Positions 3,198 through 33,508 of a DNA stretch of 42,230 bases are shown here, piece by piece (within the stretch, counting starts at the first letter, position 1; each line of letters opens with the position of its first letter). Below the pieces are notes generated by a model. It saw only the letters and a program-made list of their open reading frames with translations, did no database searches and was not told the origin of the DNA. The stretch is from Alphaproteobacteria bacterium (GTDB lineage: Bacteria; Pseudomonadota; Alphaproteobacteria; SHVP01), in NCBI GenBank assembly GCA_029936875.1, contig JAPYRS010000006.1, positions 1 to 42,230 of the forward strand, read 5' to 3'. Both the position numbers and the translations under genes were made by a program.

Positions 3198-3503
3198 CCC
3201 CAACGGCAGCAAGGGCTCAAACGGTTCGGCGGCTCGATGAAGGACATCACGTTTCGCGCCGTTCGCGAGTCTGGTAGAATGGGTCCGCTCGGGTCGAATT
3301 TTGATTGGCGCCAAAAAAACGGCGCTGCCAATCCACAGACAACGGGCACACACCGGGGGTGAACTGGCAGGCAAACAAATCGCAACATTGCTTGCGAAAT
3401 TGTTTTCCGGCCTTTGCCAGATGAGATCAGCCTTTAAGCCGAAGCAGACACGGTTGAACGCAGCGATCTCTCGGCCCCCATTGAATGCGGAGAGGTTGGA
3501 GAA
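3198..3503. other. Intergenic region before the cyclase, no gene seen
   Basis: About 306 bases have no convincing ORF; the 102-aa track ORF at 3301-3609 is out of frame with the cyclase and has no recognisable content. The only structure is an imperfect inverted repeat around 3304-3332 (ATTGGC-GCC, an A-rich loop, then GGC-GCTGCCAAT). No T-tract follows it, so it is not a clear terminator. The cyclase promoter should lie here, but I could not single it out. Confidence 0.5.
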
Positions 3504-5105
3504 ATGTCCGACGACGTTGAAACATCAGAATCGTCGAGTGAATTGCCGGAATACAGCATTTCTGCGGAGTTGCTGGATCGTAATGTTCGGATTGAATTTA
3601 ACGGCGTGACGATTGTCGATAGCAACCGCGCCATTCTCTACAAGGAATCCCGGCTTGAGCCGGTTTACTATTTTCCGCGTGAAGACGTTCGCATGGATTT
3701 GATGCAGCGAACGCGTCATCGCAGCCACTGCCCGTTCAAAGGAAATGCGTCCTACTGGAATCTTCAGGTCGGCGACAGGAAAATCGAAAATACCGTTTGG
3801 AGTTATGAAAACCCGCTGCCTGAAGCAAATGGCATTAAGGGCCATCTCGCCTTTTGGATTTCCAAACTCGGCATCAGTTACAACGAAGATGGGGAATACC
3901 AGAGCCAGACAACGGCTATAGAGACCCACGGCAGCGCCTTCATTGACTGGATTTTGCGCGAAGCCTGGGACACGGAAAATGCAACCGATCTAACGAAACG
4001 TCTTGGCAGTGTCCTGACCGGTGCCGGCATGGAAGTGCGCCGGATGTCGGTCTTCATTCGGACGCTTCACCCGCTGCTGATCGGTTCAGCCTATGTGTGG
4101 CGTTCCGATTCAGAAGAAATCAACAACTTCGTTCTCACCCACGACACGCTTTCGAGCCCGACATTCCTGGATAGCCCGCTCATTCCAATTTTCAACGGCG
4201 CCGGTGGTATACGGCGAAGGTTGGAAGGTGATAACCCGCTGCTCGACTACGGCATCATCAAACAGCTGCACGAAGAAGGCATGACCGATTATGCGGCAAT
4301 GCCGATGACATTTTCGGATGGCCAGCTCAACGCGCTAACGATCGCGACCGACCGCAAGGGCGGATTTTCGATGTCCGAGCTCGGAAGGCTGCATGAGATT
4401 ATTCCTGTTCTGAGCCGTATCTATGAAGTGTTTGCAACGAAGAGCGTCAGTAATTCGTTGCTGCAAACATATCTTGGCCGGCACACCGGTGAAAAAGTTT
4501 TAAAGGGTCTGGTCAAGCGCGGTGATTCTGAAGAACTCAACGCGGTGATCTGGTTCTGCGATCTTCGAAATTCGACACCGCTTGCCGACTCGATGCCGCG
4601 CGACGAATTCCTCGCCATCCTCAATCGCTTCTTCGAATGCATGGTGAAACCGGTTGTTGAATACGGCGGCGAAGTTTTGAATTTTATCGGCGACGCGGTT
4701 CTTGGTATCTTTCCGTTATTGGACGGGGGCTCCACCTACCAACGCGCCTGCGACGACGCCTTGTCCGCCGCTGCCGATGCAAAAGAGCGGATGAAAAAAT
4801 TCAACGTTGAACGCGCCGAAGAGGCTCTCGATCCTTTGGACTTCGGCATCGGCCTCCATCTTGGGAAACTGACCTACGGCAATATCGGCATTCCCGAACG
4901 GCTCCAATTTACGGTCATTGGCGCAGCCGCCAATGAAGCCTCGCGCATCGAAGGACTGACCAAGGAATTGGAGCACACGGTGGTCACGTCTTCCGCCTTT
5001 GCCGAGCGTTGCTCGTCCCCGCTGACACCAATTGGTGAGTTTGAATTGCGCGGCGTGCGCGACAAGCAAATGATCTTCGTTCCGGAAGACATGCCCGGAT
5101 TTTAG
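3504..5105 (+). CDS. DUF427 domain fused to a class III adenylate/guanylate cyclase
   Basis: The 533-residue protein has three parts. Residues about 28-120 are a DUF427 (NTP_transf_9) domain, with NGVTIVDSNRAILYKES and SHCPFKGNASYW. The middle (about 150-330) is a poorly recognised region, possibly GAF-like. The C-terminus (about 340-515) is a class III nucleotide cyclase domain. Both metal aspartates are present (D353 in WFCDLRNST, D397 in FIGDAVLGIF), as are the transition-state residues N477 and R481 (NEASR). The substrate-specifying lysine normally four residues before the second aspartate is asparagine (N393), while its partner T470 is kept. The protein probably makes cAMP or cGMP, but activity and substrate are uncertain. 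An AGAGG site lies 8 bases before the ATG. It appears monocistronic. Confidence 0.85.
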   Translation: MSDDVETSESSSELPEYSISAELLDRNVRIEFNGVTIVDSNRAILYKESRLEPVYYFPREDVRMDLMQRTRHRSHCPFKGNASYWNLQVGDRKIENTVWSYENPLPEANGIKGHLAFWISKLGISYNEDGEYQSQTTAIETHGSAFIDWILREAWDTENATDLTKRLGSVLTGAGMEVRRMSVFIRTLHPLLIGSAYVWRSDSEEINNFVLTHDTLSSPTFLDSPLIPIFNGAGGIRRRLEGDNPLLDYGIIKQLHEEGMTDYAAMPMTFSDGQLNALTIATDRKGGFSMSELGRLHEIIPVLSRIYEVFATKSVSNSLLQTYLGRHTGEKVLKGLVKRGDSEELNAVIWFCDLRNSTPLADSMPRDEFLAILNRFFECMVKPVVEYGGEVLNFIGDAVLGIFPLLDGGSTYQRACDDALSAAADAKERMKKFNVERAEEALDPLDFGIGLHLGKLTYGNIGIPERLQFTVIGAAANEASRIEGLTKELEHTVVTSSAFAERCSSPLTPIGEFELRGVRDKQMIFVPEDMPGF

Positions 5106-5165: not shown

Positions 5166-5510
5166 CTATCTTTTCTTCCTGGGTTTTTTTGGTGTCTTCG
5201 CCGCCCGTGCGCGCAGCGCTGCGTCGACCGCCCCTTTTGCCCACGGTTTCATTTTTCGCCAACCGTCCGCACATTCCGGCGGTGCGGCGAAATAGGGCAT
5301 CCGGCCAAAGGGCTTCAGGTCCCGTTTTTCATAGTCTGGGCGGTTGATATCGTCGGCCCTGAAAAACAGGTCGTTTTTTCGAGTGACCAGCGCAAACATT
5401 GATCCCTCAAAAAATAACCCGTGGCCGCCGAACATATTCCGCGCGCTGACATCCCCGAGCGGGACCATCACCCGCGGCAGGGTGGTGACATATTCGTTGG
5501 ATTTTGCCAT
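5166..5510 (-). CDS. TfoX N-terminal domain protein
   Basis: This 114-residue protein consists of a TfoX_N domain (VSARNMFGGHGLFFEGSMFA, then LFFRADD and PFGRMPYF) and a lysine/arginine-rich tail. In gammaproteobacteria, TfoX/Sxy proteins activate competence genes. Stand-alone TfoX_N proteins like this one are widespread in alphaproteobacteria and have no assigned role, so competence should not be assumed. A GGAGG site lies 13 bases before the ATG. The gene lies directly downstream of tRNA-Val in the same direction and could share its transcript. It converges with the cyclase gene, with a 60-base gap. Confidence 0.82.
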   Translation of the reverse strand: MAKSNEYVTTLPRVMVPLGDVSARNMFGGHGLFFEGSMFALVTRKNDLFFRADDINRPDYEKRDLKPFGRMPYFAAPPECADGWRKMKPWAKGAVDAALRARAAKTPKKPRKKR

Positions 5511-7103: not shown

Positions 7104-7661
7104 ATGTCGCTGCTTATCAAACTGATTTTCGGAATTGCGGCGGGCGCAATTCTCGGCGGAATCATGAGCCCGGCCAATGCTGGCACCAGAAAATCCGCGT
7201 TTTCCGCTGAAATTGCTGCGCTTTGCCGGCCGCCAATTGCGAAAATGGAATCCCAGTATCAGTTTCCGCGCATGCTTCTGTCTGCGATATCACTGGCCGA
7301 ATCGGGACGATGGCACGCGGGCCGGCGAGAAAGTTTTGCCTGGCCGTGGACCATCACGTCCGCAAGTGACACCTGGTATTTTGATAGCAAAGTCGAAGCC
7401 GTTGCCTTCTCCGTCACCGACGAGGAAGATCTGTTGCGAACGCTCCGCCCTGGAATTGACGGCCTCATTCTCTCGGACGGGAAAAGACGCGCGACTTTTC
7501 TTCCCCAAGTGTGGGAGCAATTGAAAACACCAGAAGTCTTCGTCCGGCAACTGAAACGAAAAGCCGGCCTTGCCGACGATTTTTGGTCTGATCAGATGAC
7601 GTTTTTGCGCTATACCACCTTCAGCTTTGGCCGCCCGTTCGCGCCGTTTTCTGCAAAATAG
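7104..7661 (+). pseudogene. Chimeric ORF: lytic transglycosylase N-terminus joined to AMMECR1 C-terminus
   Basis: The 185-residue ORF starts at the ATG at 7104 (GGAGA ribosome binding site), not at 6978. Residues 1-27 are a signal peptide ending ANA. Residues about 28-101 match the start of a lytic transglycosylase (LLSAISLAESGRWHAGRRES, then WPWTITSASDTWYFDSK). From about residue 103 the sequence is the C-terminal part of AmmeMemoRadiSam protein A (AMMECR1): DEEDLLRTLRPGIDGLILSD, TFLPQVWEQL and LKRKAGLADDFWSDQM. Neither domain is complete, and AMMECR1 is normally cytosolic. The simplest reading is a deletion that joined two unrelated genes in frame near 7405-7420, removing what lay between. 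An assembly misjoin is possible. I see no way for the product to keep either activity. Confidence 0.8.
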
Positions 7662-18398: not shown

Positions 18399-19889
18399 TT
18401 ATTCGCCGGCGGTTCCCGCGATCAACCGGCTTGGCACAAGCTCCACGTTCCGCCGCACGGCACCCAAGGGACCAACCGCAGGTGTTGCCTCGCCGTCGAC
18501 CATTACGCGAATGGCGCCCGCATTACCCATCATCATGACGAGGCCAGGACGGTCGGGAACGAGGTAGCGGTCGCCGGGGCGGAGCACGCGGGTGAGCAGT
18601 ATTTCGCCGCCCCTGCTCCGTACTTGAATCCAGCTTTCGAGTTCCGACACCAGCACGATGCGGGCATCGGTATTGGCAGCGCCAAACGTTTCACCCTCGC
18701 GGGTCGTGCGGGGGCCGACCTGCGTCACCAACGGCGGCGGCAGTGCAGCAACGGTGCGGGCCGGTGCAGCTGTTGCTGTCGGTGCAAGTGGTGGTGACGC
18801 GGCGGCAGGCGCGGCGGCCACGACTTCACCAGAACCTGTCAGACGGGTCGTACGGTCAGCGGCGGATTGTTCGCCAGAAGCTGTTTCAGAAGACGCCGTT
18901 TCGGTCGATGCAGTGTCGGTCGCAGCTGCGGTCGCTGTGGTTGTGGATGTGGATGACGTTGCTGCGGAACGCGGCGTTGCGGGACCTGACGTTTCGGGGC
19001 GGGTGTTTGTCCGTGTCTCAACCACAGCAACTTCAGTCGATGATTGAACTGATTGCTCCGAAGGTGCCGGCGCGGCAGGAGATGCGGGCGCGGCTGCGGC
19101 GACTTGGTTTGTTACGGGCGTTGACGCGATTCGGTTTGGCGCCGCGCTCTCATCCGTCGCAGCGGGATCGGCAGTTGCAACCTCAGTGGTGACAACTTCC
19201 GTCGTAGCAACAGGAGTTGATGTATTTTCGTTGCGGCGGGGCGTGGTCGTGACCGCATCAGAAGTGGCAACGGGCGCAATCACGCGGGTCGCAGGCTCAT
19301 CCGACGCAGCCGGCGGCGTGATGGTTTGGATAACCGGCGTTCGCGGTCGGGTCGACGCGCGCGCTTCGGTTACCGGTGCGAGACGTTCCGGAACGGCGGC
19401 AACGATTTCGCTGGTCCTGCGTTCATCACGCGTGACCATGAACCAACCGGTATAGGCAACCGCTGCAACGATCAGCGATATCAATAAGATCCGGCCGGTC
19501 GGCAAACGGCCAGCTTCCATCGGTTCGGGAAAATCGAGTTTTGTTTCCGGTCTCGGTTCGCTGTCTTCTTCCTTGAACTGGCTGATGACGCGGGCCGGAT
19601 CGAGTTCCAGATATTCGGCGTAGCTACGCAGGAAGCCAAGCGTATAAACGTGTCCTGGCAATCCCTGAAATTGTCCGCCCTCAATCGCCTGCAAATATTC
19701 AAGATTGATGCGAAGTGCGTCCGCGACCGAACTGAGCTTGATGTTAAGTCTCTCGCGCGTCGCCCGAAGTTCTGCGCCGATGCCGGAATAATCCGATTCC
19801 GGAACCGCGACCACTTCGCGAAAATACAATCCCCCGCGACGTTCCTGTCGCGACCTAGAATTTTGGTTATTCAAATCCCCACTAGCCAT
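18399..19889 (-). CDS. rodZ: RodZ-like cytoskeletal anchor with DUF4115 domain
   Basis: RodZ links the MreB cytoskeleton to the cell wall elongation machinery. From the ATG at 19889 the protein has 496 residues. A cytoplasmic HTH_25 domain (about 35-105) contains IGAELRATRERLNIKLSSVA and YLQAIEGGQFQGLPGHVYTLGFLRSYA. A membrane segment (ILLISLIVAAVAYTGWFMV) follows, then a very long Thr/Ala/Pro/Val-rich periplasmic linker (about 170-390) and a C-terminal DUF4115 beta domain (VLVSELESWIQVRSRGGEIL and YLVPDRPGLVMMMGNAG). The linker is the only unusual part and is probably disordered. Start choice is uncertain: the track start adds 19 residues that do not look like the family. Confidence 0.88.
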   Translation of the reverse strand: MASGDLNNQNSRSRQERRGGLYFREVVAVPESDYSGIGAELRATRERLNIKLSSVADALRINLEYLQAIEGGQFQGLPGHVYTLGFLRSYAEYLELDPARVISQFKEEDSEPRPETKLDFPEPMEAGRLPTGRILLISLIVAAVAYTGWFMVTRDERRTSEIVAAVPERLAPVTEARASTRPRTPVIQTITPPAASDEPATRVIAPVATSDAVTTTPRRNENTSTPVATTEVVTTEVATADPAATDESAAPNRIASTPVTNQVAAAAPASPAAPAPSEQSVQSSTEVAVVETRTNTRPETSGPATPRSAATSSTSTTTATAAATDTASTETASSETASGEQSAADRTTRLTGSGEVVAAAPAAASPPLAPTATAAPARTVAALPPPLVTQVGPRTTREGETFGAANTDARIVLVSELESWIQVRSRGGEILLTRVLRPGDRYLVPDRPGLVMMMGNAGAIRVMVDGEATPAVGPLGAVRRNVELVPSRLIAGTAGE

Positions 19890-20098: not shown

Positions 20099-22050
20099 TT
20101 AGACAACAAAACCGTGATCTAAGGCGAAGTCTTTTAACTTTTCACGGACGGAATGATCTGCCGAATCGTAGAGATTTTCCATGTAAGCACTGAGTTCCCC
20201 GACATCGAGCCGCCGAATCATCAGTTTTATTGGCCCGACCGCGCTCGGTGCGACCGACAGCGACCGAAAGCCAATTCCGATCAAGGCCATGGCGTCGAGC
20301 GGCTTTCCCGCCATTTCGCCGCACAGCGAAACCCGCACACCGGCTTCGTTAAAGCGTTCAACCAACGAATGGAGCAGGCGAAGAAAGCCAGGCGCCAGCA
20401 CATCGTAGCGTTCCGACAGCCGCGGACTAGCCCGGTCGGCGGCAAACAGAAACTGCGCGAGATCGTTAGAGCCAATTGCGACGAAATCGATCAACGGCAT
20501 CAGTTGCTCGAGCTGCCATATGAGCGCCGGCACCTCGAACATGACGCCGACCTCGAGTTTTGATGGCGCCGGCACGTTTCGCCGCGCGAGCCGTGTGAGC
20601 TCGAGATCCAGAATTCTGCGGGCGACGATAAATTCAGACACTTCCGCGACCATCGGAAACATCACCGCAAGGTGACGCCCAGCAGCGGCATGAAGGAGTG
20701 CCCGAAGTTGCGTTCGCAGCAGCGCCGGGCGATCGAGTCCGACGCGAATTGCGCGCCACCCCATCGCCGGGTTTTCGTCCGGCGTCCGGCTGCCATCCTG
20801 ATAGGGAAGGATTTTGTCACCGCCGATATAGAGGGTCCGGAACATGACCGGCTTGTCGGCCGCCTCGTCAAGAATGCGGGTATAGATTTCGGTCTGTTCC
20901 TTCACGCCGGGAAGGCCGGGCTGGACTATGAACTGAAGTTCGGTGCGAAAGAGACCGATGCCCTCTGCACCGGAATCTTCAAGGTGCGGCAAATCCAACA
21001 AGAGCCCCGCATTCATGTCGAGCCGATGGTACGGGCAACAAGGACGGCATTGTCCGGCAACGCCATTGCGCTCGCCGCCGTCGCGCCGGTCAAATGGCGA
21101 AGCAAACGGTTGGAAAGATCGTCGAGATCTTGCAGGCGTTCGCGAAAAAATGGATCGGTCTTGCCGGACATGCGCTCGCGCGTATTAACCTGCACCCGTT
21201 GCACGGCAGCCTCTGCCGTCAGGCCCCCTCGGATCGCTTCGTCGATGCGGTCCCGCCAGCCGCGATCGCGCGAAAACATCCAGTATGTTTCTAGGATCAC
21301 GCTGTCTTCGCCGCCGCCGCGCGCCATCGCCCCTTCAACCAGATCATCAATTGCATCGGCGAGGCCGGACAGTGCCTGATCGAGGCGGATTTTTTCGTTG
21401 TCCGGATCGTCGGCGACCAGTTGGCTCACTTCAATTGGCGGGTCGTGAAACACCACCTGCCCATCTGCAAGACCAACGGCCAAGGGAACCCCTTCAAGCC
21501 GTTGCGGCAGTGTCACGTTTCCGGATGTTTCGAGAAGTTCGTCGGGCGAAACAAGTTGACCGCCGCCAACAATTTCGGCCAGCACTATCGCAATAATTTG
21601 CAACGCCTCGACTTCGTCTTCGCCGTAACCGCGTGCCGTTCGGTTTTGCACGGCAAGAACCCCGACGACTTGCCCCGCGTGCAAAATCGGTACGCCGAGA
21701 AATGAACGAAACGATTACTCGCCGGTTTCTGGGCGATAGGCGAACAGGGAATGGGACCGGGCGTCCGAAAGATTGAGCGGTCGCGCGTGCGCGGCGATGT
21801 CGCCAACCAGCCCCTCGCCGATCCGAAGGCGGGTCGAATGGACAGCCTCCGGATTGAGGCCAAATGTCGCGAAGAGCTCGAGGATTTCACCGGCGCGGCG
21901 AAGATAGATCGAGCAAACCTCGGCAACCAGATTGTCTGCGATTGCCGCGGTCAGGTTATCGAGGCGGGATTGCGCCGCCCCTTCGGCTGCCATGATCGCC
22001 CGCAACTGGCGCAGCAGCGTCCGGGGGCCTATCGATTCGATCACCGTCAT
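20099..22050 (-). pseudogene. ptsP: Broken ptsP (PEP-protein phosphotransferase, nitrogen PTS EI)
   Basis: PtsP (EI-Ntr) takes phosphate from PEP onto an active-site histidine and passes it to NPr. Three ORFs here are pieces of one gene. The first (22050-21715) is the GAF domain, from MTVIESIGPRTLLRQ to YRPETGE. An in-frame TAA then interrupts it, and the same frame resumes at once with SFRSFLGVPILHAGQVVG, so this is a nonsense change, not a frameshift. The second piece (to 21013) covers the rest of GAF and the EI N-domain, to LVARTIG. The third (21016-20099), in another frame, is the C-terminal PEP-binding domain (MNAGLLLDLPHLEDSGAEGI, then SLCGEMAGKP). About 100 residues with the phosphohistidine motif (GGxxSHxAI) are missing at the 21013-21025 junction. 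The gene cannot make active enzyme. Confidence 0.9.
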
Positions 22051-22157: not shown

Positions 22158-23252
22158 TTAGACGGCGGCTTTTTCCTGATTGGCAGCGTCCAAACCCAGT
22201 TCAGCGCCCAAAAACTGTCCCGCCAGCGATTCGACCGCCTGGTCGATAAGTTCGCTGAGGATCTCGGCGACCGGCTGTTCAGTTTTGACAAGTCCGATGC
22301 TTTGCCCGGCCATCACCGACCCGCCCTTCACGTCACCATCAATGGCGGCGCGGCGGAGTGCGCCGGCCCAGAATCGTTCGATTTCGAGCTGCGCCTCAAT
22401 GAGCGTCAGTTCGCCGGAATTGTGACGGGCGATAACCGTCCGCTGCGTTTCCATGAACGTCACCGTCGCCTCATTGGCGAGCGCGCGGACCGGGATCACC
22501 GGAAAACGCGGATCGAGCTGGACCGACAAAACAGCGTCGCGCGCATTGGCACGATAAAATGCCTTCTTGAAATTGGGGTGGGCGATTGATTCAGTGGCGC
22601 AGACAAACCGCGTTCCCATCTGCACGCCACTGCCACCGCTTTCGAGATACATGGCAATGGCTTCGCCACGGCCGATGCCGCCAGCCACAAATATCGGCAC
22701 GTCATCGACGCTGGGCAGAATCTCCTGGGCGAGCACGCCAGTCGCGACCGGGCCGATATGACCGCCGGCCTCCATCCCTTCGATGACAATTGCGTCCGCA
22801 CCGTTCCGGACAAGACGTTTTGCAATCGCCAAGGCCGGCGCAAAGGCAATGACCTTCGCACCGCCTTGTTTGATGTGTTTGATGGATGCGGCTGAGGCGA
22901 GGCCACCGGCCAAAGCAATGTGCGTCGCGTTCGCCTTATGGCAGACATCAATCAAGGCTTCGAGATCGGGATGCATGGTGATCAGGTTGACGCCGAACGG
23001 ACGGTCGGTAAGCGCCGCGGTCGCCGCAATTTCCTCGGCCAACTGTTCGGGGTTCATCGAGCCACAGGCGATGACGCCAAATCCACCGGCGTTGGAAATC
23101 GCCGATACCAAATTCCGTTCCGACAACCACGACATCGCGCCGCCGAGTATTGCGTATTCGGAGCCAAGAAATTCAGTGCCGCGACGCCACAAGGAATCGA
23201 GGCGGGCGCGGGCGGAAGCGTAAACAGCAGAATCAGTTTGCATCGAGACCAT
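22158..23252 (-). CDS. Nitronate monooxygenase / FabK-like FMN oxidoreductase
   Basis: The protein of about 364 residues is an FMN-dependent TIM-barrel enzyme of the nitronate monooxygenase (2-nitropropane dioxygenase) family. Visible features are PF-type early residues AILGGAMSWLS, AISNAGGFGVIACGSM, IVIEGMEAGGHIGPV (with the histidine typical of the family), and the phosphate-binding FVAGGIGRGEAIAMYLESG. NMOs oxidise alkyl nitronates such as propionate-3-nitronate. FabK enoyl-ACP reductases share the GGHIG motif, so that alternative stays open. It sits between lysC and ptsP and its start overlaps the lysC end. Starts at 23252 and 23243 are both possible; the track start at 23288 extends deeper into lysC. 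Confidence 0.85.
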   Translation of the reverse strand: MVSMQTDSAVYASARARLDSLWRRGTEFLGSEYAILGGAMSWLSERNLVSAISNAGGFGVIACGSMNPEQLAEEIAATAALTDRPFGVNLITMHPDLEALIDVCHKANATHIALAGGLASAASIKHIKQGGAKVIAFAPALAIAKRLVRNGADAIVIEGMEAGGHIGPVATGVLAQEILPSVDDVPIFVAGGIGRGEAIAMYLESGGSGVQMGTRFVCATESIAHPNFKKAFYRANARDAVLSVQLDPRFPVIPVRALANEATVTFMETQRTVIARHNSGELTLIEAQLEIERFWAGALRRAAIDGDVKGGSVMAGQSIGLVKTEQPVAEILSELIDQAVESLAGQFLGAELGLDAANQEKAAV

Positions 23253-26208: not shown

Positions 26209-26739
26209 TTAGGCGTCTTTGGCCTTCGGCCACGGCAGCACGCCAAAATCGACACCCTCTTCGTGCAAGCTTGCCGCTTCATCAGGCGTGGTTTCACCGT
26301 AAATATTGTGATGTTCCACTTCGCCGTAATGAATTTTGCGCGCTTCCTCGGCAAAACTGGGGCCGACGTAATCGCAATTGTCCTCGACCTGCGTCCGCAT
26401 GGTTTGCAGCATCTGAACCATTTTTGCGGCGCGTTCAAAATCGCCTTTGGTGGCCAGCGCAGGCGGGCCGTCACCAGAATCCGCAACGGCGGGCGTGTTG
26501 GCGGTCATGTCGGGCGATGCGAAATCAGCATTTGACTCGGAGGCGTCGGGCAAGTGGCGTGGCGCTGGCGATTTCCGGGTGGCGACGCTCGGCGCCATTA
26601 ACGCCTTATGGACATCGTCGCTGCCGCATACCGGGCATGAAATTTTAGCTGCCTTCACCTGTTGGTCGAAGGCGGCGGAGCCCGGAAACCACGCTTCAAA
26701 AGCATGGCTGTTTCCGCATTTCAAATCAAAGACGATCAT
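26209..26739 (-). CDS. DUF1178 family protein
   Basis: This 176-residue protein matches DUF1178: the N-terminal MIVFDLKCGNSHAFEAWF, a CPVCGS zinc-ribbon-like pair near residue 35 (with the earlier cysteine C8), a low-complexity linker, and a conserved C-terminal helix region (KMVQMLQTMRTQVEDNCDYV, then EARKIHYGEVE and IYGETTPDEAASL). The function is not known. The zinc ribbon suggests a nucleic-acid or protein interaction. In alphaproteobacteria it usually follows the nitrilase-grxC genes; here a plus-strand methyltransferase has come between. Confidence 0.9.
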   Translation of the reverse strand: MIVFDLKCGNSHAFEAWFPGSAAFDQQVKAAKISCPVCGSDDVHKALMAPSVATRKSPAPRHLPDASESNADFASPDMTANTPAVADSGDGPPALATKGDFERAAKMVQMLQTMRTQVEDNCDYVGPSFAEEARKIHYGEVEHHNIYGETTPDEAASLHEEGVDFGVLPWPKAKDA

Positions 26740-31892: not shown

Positions 31893-32834
31893 TCAGACGA
31901 AATCCCGCAACAGCGCGACCAAAGACACGTCAGCAGGCGGCATCGCGAGGTCGCGCATGTCGATCGGTCGCATCCATTTGAGCGCCTGGCGGTCCCGCGG
32001 CGTCATCAACCCCTCCCATACCCGGCAGACGTATAAATACATCAGCAGGTGAAAGTCATCGTAGGCATGGCTCGCAAACGTAAACGGCGCGAGGCAGCTT
32101 TCGGTGACGTCGATGTCGAGCTCTTCTTTTAGCTCGCGGATCAACGCCGTCTCAGGCGTTTCGCCGGGCTCGATTTTGCCGCCGGGAAATTCCCAGAGGC
32201 CCGCCATCGATTTTTCCTCAGGCCGTTGTGCGACCAGAACCCGCCCTTCGACATCGACCAGCGCGACCGCGGAGACAAACACCTGCGGCAATATTTGGCT
32301 CGACAACCATTCGGCGCGGGTGAGGCAAAAGGACAAGGTCGGCAAGTTGGTATTGCGGGCAACCAAATGGGAAAGCACTTCGCCAGTGATCCGGAACCCG
32401 GCCTTTGCCAGTACGCGCTGTGACGGCGGATTATCAATCGCAACTTCCGCCCATAACATTGGGATGCGGAGCGTACTGAACGCATAATCAACAACGGCGA
32501 CAACGGCCTCGCTGATCAATCCCTGACCCCAATAGGGTTTGCCGAGCCAATAGCCGACTTCCGCGCCTTCTAAGCCGGGGACGGAATCGTCAGCTTCATG
32601 AAGCCCAATGCCGCCAATGAAAGCGCCGTCGGATTTCCGTTCCATTGCGAAAATGTGGCCCGGATCTTTTTGCGCGCGGGCAATAAACTCAGCCGCGTCC
32701 TGTTCACTGTAGGGATAGGGGACGCGCGCCAAGTATCGAACTGTGTCGGTGTCGTTGAAAAGCGCAACCATCGCGCCCGCGTCTTCGTCTTTGAAGGCGC
32801 GCATTCGAATCCGGTCGCACTCGGGGCCGGTCAT
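31893..32834 (-). CDS. Fused GNAT acetyltransferase and MutT-type NUDIX hydrolase
   Basis: The 313-residue ORF has two complete domains. Residues about 1-178 are a RimJ/RimL-type GNAT (RMRAFKDEDAGAMVALFN, then EVGYWLGKPYWGQGLISEAV). Residues about 183-313 are a MutT-type NUDIX hydrolase with an intact box (GGKIEPGETPETALIRELKE, then ELDI) and the usual VLVAQRPEEKSMAGLWEFPG lead-in. MutT enzymes remove oxidised nucleotides such as 8-oxo-dGTP. In related genomes I would expect two adjacent genes; here only about four residues separate the domains. The start overlaps the next GNAT gene by four bases (ATGA). Confidence 0.88.
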   Translation of the reverse strand: MTGPECDRIRMRAFKDEDAGAMVALFNDTDTVRYLARVPYPYSEQDAAEFIARAQKDPGHIFAMERKSDGAFIGGIGLHEADDSVPGLEGAEVGYWLGKPYWGQGLISEAVVAVVDYAFSTLRIPMLWAEVAIDNPPSQRVLAKAGFRITGEVLSHLVARNTNLPTLSFCLTRAEWLSSQILPQVFVSAVALVDVEGRVLVAQRPEEKSMAGLWEFPGGKIEPGETPETALIRELKEELDIDVTESCLAPFTFASHAYDDFHLLMYLYVCRVWEGLMTPRDRQALKWMRPIDMRDLAMPPADVSLVALLRDFV

Positions 32835-33508
32835 GATATTGGGTTGGGCGCGTCCAACGGTGTCCGGATTTGTTCCAGCGCATCAGGCGCCTGCCAGCGA
32901 TAGGCGGTAACCGCGAGCGGATGGCCAAAACCGGCAACGGTGCCTTCGGCCTCAAAGCCGCATTTCAGCAACGTCCGCACAGACGCCGCGTTGTCACCGA
33001 GGACTTCGGCCGCGACCGAGCGCACGCCGTGCACGCGGACGACATAATCGAGCACCGCAATTGCCGCCTCTGTCGCATAACCGCTGCCCCAATAATCCCG
33101 ACCAATCCAGAAGCCGAGTTCACAGCCGAGCGCACCGGGGCCGATTTCAATACCGCCAGCGAGAAGCCCGGTCGCCCGGTCTTCAATTGCAAAGCGGACG
33201 CCGGTTCGGGGTCCACGTTTCAGGTTGGGGCGGGCGGAAATCCACGTCTCGGCGTGTTCCAGCGTGTAGGGAAAGGCATCCGGTGAAAGCGGCCGTACAA
33301 CTTCCGAATCGCCAAGCAGACGTGCGAGCGCCAGCTTATCGGCCCCGCTGAAGGGGCGAAGGTTGAGGCGTGCCGTCAATATCGACGGTGCCTCATCAGG
33401 GGCAACTGGCGTGCCGCAGGATGCCGGATTGATATCCGGTCCATGGTCAAGCGCTGGCGCGAATTGGGGCGCAGCTGTGCGCACGGCGTTAGGTTCGGTA
33501 ATCGGCAT
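32831..33508 (-). CDS. GNAT acetyltransferase, RimJ/RimL type
   Basis: This is a second GNAT protein: ILTARLNLRPFSGADKLALA, then CELGFWIGRDYWGSGYATEA as the acetyl-CoA motif, and SVRTLLKCGFEAEGTV. The track ORF begins at 33598, inside argJ. I take the methionine at 33508 (225 residues), which still overlaps argJ by 20 bases and leaves an N-terminal extension of about 40 non-conserved residues. An even later start is possible. It is coupled to argJ upstream and to the GNAT-MutT gene downstream. The substrate is unknown; ribosomal protein or small-molecule acetylation are options. Confidence 0.83.
   Translation of the reverse strand: MPITEPNAVRTAAPQFAPALDHGPDINPASCGTPVAPDEAPSILTARLNLRPFSGADKLALARLLGDSEVVRPLSPDAFPYTLEHAETWISARPNLKRGPRTGVRFAIEDRATGLLAGGIEIGPGALGCELGFWIGRDYWGSGYATEAAIAVLDYVVRVHGVRSVAAEVLGDNAASVRTLLKCGFEAEGTVAGFGHPLAVTAYRWQAPDALEQIRTPLDAPNPIS

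Follow-up and report, generated by a model that had tools for sequence, protein, structure and literature searches.

A probable recent pseudogene of ptsP (EI-Ntr) in an alphaproteobacterial genome that retains the partner genes of the nitrogen phosphotransferase system

The regulatory nitrogen phosphotransferase system (PTS-Ntr) begins with EI-Ntr, an enzyme that depends on PEP. Work on R. leguminosarum has found that (i) EI-Ntr must have its catalytic His for ABC transport to be activated, (ii) autophosphorylation does not need the GAF domain and (iii) kdp expression is driven by unphosphorylated EIIA-Ntr (PMC3665714). In Caulobacter, the SpoT hydrolase is inhibited by phosphorylated EIIA-Ntr and deletion of ptsP releases it (PMC4848567), and in Brucella P-His-NPr requires EI-Ntr (PMC2937029). 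The EI-Ntr (PtsP) of Rhizobium, Brucella and Caulobacter has the domain order GAF, PEP-utilisers_N and PEP-utilizers_C, and its partners are HprK, EIIA-Man, HPr and EIIA-Ntr (PMC2937029, PMC13104625). The gene analysed here shares this domain order and this set of partners but differs in being interrupted twice and in having lost its phosphohistidine domain.

The window is a stretch of 42,230 nucleotides of contig C31 from an alphaproteobacterial MAG (2.70 Mb, 223 contigs, 94.5% complete), whose class is assigned from its relatives; the assembly may lack about 5% of the genome. The EI-Ntr gene, ptsP, lies on the minus strand at 20099–22050 between two intact minus-strand genes that serve as synteny anchors, a nitronate monooxygenase-like gene upstream (nmo, 22161–23225; Pfam NMO) and a rodZ-like gene downstream (18402–19826; Pfam HTH_25 and RodZ_C). 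The nmo anchor holds in five relatives (G003, G004, G006, G007 and G009), and the order ubiG-lysC-nmo-ptsP-rodZ-ispG-hisS-prfA-prmC is kept in two members of the same family (G003 and G006). Both homology and gene order thus link the locus to intact orthologues: the 3' fragment of ptsP is 67% identical to its counterpart in G001, the closest relative, and the neighbouring genes are common to family members. Pfam matches occur in the expected order, i.e. GAF (in two pieces), PEP-utilisers_N and PEP-utilizers_C. Judged from these matches, a chance origin of the ptsP-like sequence is excluded, because all the flanking parts match their own Pfam families. Elsewhere in the window, a single plus-strand frame (3438–5102) joins a DUF427 domain (residues 50–140) to an adenylate/guanylate cyclase catalytic domain (residues 369–547), and a GNAT acetyltransferase-NUDIX fusion (31896–32864, minus strand) adjoins a second GNAT gene.

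The first lesion is a nonsense codon inside the GAF domain. The frame that opens at the ATG at 22050 encodes 111 codons of a 5' fragment (21718–22050, minus strand) that aligns to the relatives and contains the first part of the GAF domain (E 1.5e-05, profile positions 3–76 of 133), and it closes at an in-frame TAA at 21715–21717. The same frame, unshifted, then resumes into SFRSFLGVPIL and forms a middle fragment (21013–21714, minus strand) with the remainder of the GAF domain (profile positions 87–130 of 133) and a complete PEP-utilisers_N, the HPr-binding helical domain (1–121 of 121, E 1.7e-19). In an alignment of 80 relatives, the column of the TAA holds Glu in 67, Asp in 12 and a gap in one, i.e. 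an acidic residue in 79 of 79 aligned sequences. Read against this column, a single substitution is enough to account for the stop. The first-pass annotation had described this in-frame stop, the continuation of the frame to FLGVPIL and the one-base explanation, and the sequence and the alignment agree with it on all three.

The second lesion is a deletion of 319 nt with its junction at 21022/21023 (minus strand), which, by alignment to G001 and 80 relatives, removes the swivelling phosphohistidine domain (PF00391) and shifts the frame. Past LVARTIG, the middle fragment closes at a TGA at 21015–21013, while LDMNAGLLLDLPHL goes on from the junction in a different frame, just as had been noted at first pass. 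The residues equivalent to ART and LDM are separated by 108 residues in 78 of the 80 relatives and by 107 in the remaining two. Of the 324 nt in this interval the window retains 5, so that 319 nt (1 modulo 3) and 106 of the 108 phosphohistidine-domain codons are missing. The earlier estimate of about 100 skipped residues was therefore right about the loss of the domain and slightly low about its size, which the alignment puts at about 106 codons. Likewise, the active-site His had been reported as lost together with a GGxxSHxAI motif: the His motif is indeed deleted, but in the relatives it reads EEG(S/T)..SH..IVAR, and the catalytic His of this EEGxxxSH motif is present at the same place in them. 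Beyond the junction, the 3' fragment (20099–21016, minus strand) is open from an ATG and contains the PEP-binding C-terminal domain (PEP-utilizers_C, E 3.8e-78); its ATG overlaps the TGA of the middle fragment (ATGA), an overlap that is coincidental. No direct repeats of at least 10 nt were found in the window for the deletion junction. A CATCG-like microhomology at the junction, imaginable from G001, was rejected, since it depends on assumed ancestral bases and would not yield the observed frame.

The GAF, PF05524 and PF02896 domains are thus found in the ptsP remains, PF00391 is absent and the frame is broken twice; GAF, EI N-terminal, phosphohistidine and PEP-binding domains do not occur together in one frame. 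The two lesions, each of which would break the frame by itself, bear out the earlier description of two inactivating hits. Since catalysis does not depend on the GAF domain, re-initiation might have made the nonsense codon alone survivable; it is the deletion that removes catalysis. Separate production of the fragments, by re-initiation at a TTG (21684) and a coupled start at the ATG (21016), with a non-catalytic role for the trimmed protein, is conceivable in that both downstream fragments remain open, the ATGA overlap links the second and third fragments, and the PEP-binding motifs are kept apart from one Asp change. However, the phosphohistidine domain required for any phosphotransfer is missing, R. 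leguminosarum needs the catalytic His and not the GAF domain (PMC3665714), and such an arrangement occurs in none of the relatives, so that we regard this reading as very improbable. Reassignment of TAA or programmed frameshifting to restore a product is less probable still: the unchanged frame past the TAA would fit it, but the deleted residues are not restorable in this way, which refutes it for the catalytic domain, and the other sampled genes have no in-frame stops.

A third change is a missense codon at 20828–20830 (minus strand) that turns FRTLDIGGDK into FRTLYIGGDK; all 80 relatives have Asp at this position, where the window has Tyr. All 80 relatives fetched carry one long open ptsP frame, and the disabling lesions are absent from these orthologues. 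In two of them the gene is shorter, at 527 and 722 residues, probably because it runs off the contig. We then compared divergence with that of the neighbouring genes, counting departures from the consensus at sites with the same residue in 60% or more of the relatives. The window and G001 depart at 68 (of 402) and 52 sites in ptsP, 34 and 27 in ispG, 60 and 43 in hisS, and 54 and 54 in prfA, respectively; relative to G001, the ptsP remains diverge no faster than these three neighbours. At the ptsP sites that are 97% conserved, the window has 4 changes, one of them the Asp to Tyr replacement; the relatives average 2.0 (s.d. 2.5). Because the remains are not accelerated relative to the neighbouring genes, the inactivation should be recent, or the lesions artefacts. 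This supports the first-pass view of a well-preserved remainder and a recent loss.

Our searches revealed no second EI in the genome. The broken ptsP is the sole genome-wide match to PF05524, tblastn with the C domain matched only ptsP itself and pyruvate phosphate dikinase, and a search for a displaced PF00391 led only to pyruvate phosphate dikinase, on contig C42. Within the 94.5% complete assembly, there is thus no functional second copy. The partner genes are all in place, including those that the first-pass annotation had suggested looking for (ptsN, ptsO and hprK), with HPr, HprK and EIIA-Man grouped on contig C2 and EIIA-Ntr farther along the same contig. Their active-site motifs are kept: GLHARA (His) and RSVMGLL (Ser) in HPr, IPHGK (His) in EIIA-Ntr, VTHGD (His) in EIIA-Man and the P-loop GPSGSGKS in HprK. 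As far as the partner genes alone are compared, the set matches the known alphaproteobacterial arrangement without a PTS permease (PMC2937029, PMC13104625).

In a panel of 60 relatives, EI (by PF05524) is present in 46, HPr in 44 and EIIA-Ntr in 44. All 14 EI-negative relatives also lack HPr, and none of the 44 HPr-positive relatives lacks EI. Two relatives (G002 and G033) are EI-positive with no HPr detected, possibly owing to genome incompleteness. The combination seen here, HPr kept and EI broken, is therefore unusual and is found in no other genome of the panel. EIIA-Ntr is kept in six of the 14 EI-negative relatives, which suggests that the orphan protein has a role independent of phosphorylation.

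Are the lesions real? At the level of the assembled contig, we consider that the locus is probably a recent ptsP (EI-Ntr) pseudogene with two real lesions. An intact ptsP in the organism, misrepresented by a contig with one wrong join, at which 319 nt were dropped, and one wrong base, is a less likely explanation that nevertheless carries real weight. It would be in keeping with an assembly of 223 contigs, with the absence of HPr without EI from all 60 relatives and with a residual ptsP that appears constrained and shows little extra decay; moreover, the same contig contains a second deletion of more than 1 kb with a clean in-frame junction at ∼7397, 14 kb away. On the other hand, for an artefact two errors, unlike in kind and independent of each other, would have to fall in the same gene. 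The contig is also long, contains no N and runs collinear with G001 for ∼20 kb, and fragments of the missing domain were not found elsewhere in the genome. The G+C content of the window (57.8%) is inside the range of the sampled contigs, which likewise speaks against an artefact and led contamination to be rejected as a cause. A background survey of lesions compared 374 kb of this genome with 376 kb of G001, with genes called by coding potential. Among the 58 gene pairs, ptsP is the sole gene with an internal stop or frame change, and the other 57 show neither. Other flagged stops were rejected as lesions, all being at most 4 residues from the end of the alignment, and a truncated-looking DUF1178 gene (26212–26511) is intact and was shortened only by the gene caller. 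Because two unlike lesions occur in ptsP and none in the other sampled pairs, a pseudogene is favoured over random assembly error. The second hit would have come under relaxed selection.

The junction at ∼7397 lies in a plus-strand frame (7104–7661) that starts as the N-terminal part of a lytic transglycosylase-like protein and whose last 79 residues, joined on in frame, are the C terminus of a Memo/AMMECR1 protein. In G001, the two points that meet at this junction are ∼3 kb apart, and no Memo domain remains anywhere in the genome studied here. The fusion could be a real deletion or erosion, or a misassembly; it could reflect an assembly problem specific to this contig.

If the pseudogene reading holds, no ptsP product could pass phosphate from PEP to HPr. 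By analogy with the ptsP mutants of Rhizobium and Caulobacter (PMC3665714, PMC4848567), we infer that HPr (on His), EIIA-Ntr and EIIA-Man would be left permanently without His phosphorylation, as the first-pass annotation had proposed for NPr and EIIA-Ntr, that HPr would be modifiable only by HprK, on Ser, and that the EIIA proteins, always unphosphorylated, would act constitutively. That such a PEP-free relay of HPr, HprK and two EIIAs, with HPr controlled through Ser only and the EIIAs locked unphosphorylated, is itself adaptive and stable seems doubtful to us. The kind of event would be ordinary gene loss; its stage is unusual and informative, as stepwise loss of the nitrogen PTS would here be caught just past its first step, with EI broken and the partners intact, while the relatives show only EI-containing systems or ones that lack EI and HPr alike. 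The locus would also provide a natural null state for asking which regulatory roles the cell tolerates from HPr, EIIA-Ntr and EIIA-Man in their unphosphorylated state. It would further caution that partner genes alone do not imply a working PTS-Ntr.

Two comparisons place this state among known ones. In the sister genus g5 of the same family (G004, G007 and G009), nmo directly adjoins rodZ with no ptsP remnant, across a gap of ∼160 nt in G004 (positions 5320–5481 of locus L226, G004 C6:150000–162000; the other clean-excision locus is L227). This genus resembles the present genome in lacking a working EI and retaining ptsN, but there the excision of ptsP is clean and is accompanied by the loss of HPr, HprK and EIIA-Man, which leaves EIIA-Ntr without EI or HPr. 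At least one complete loss of the system has therefore taken place in the family, and g5 would represent the finished state of the loss proposed here. The other comparison is with the laboratory nulls R. leguminosarum PtsP107, Caulobacter delta-ptsP and Brucella delta-ptsP; ptsP nulls are reported to show less ABC transport, higher kdp expression and an unlocked SpoT hydrolase (PMC3665714, PMC4848567, PMC2937029). These are engineered strains, whereas the state described here is a natural one in an uncultured lineage known from sequence, and what they share with it is that HPr and EIIA-Ntr are expected to be without PEP-derived phosphate.
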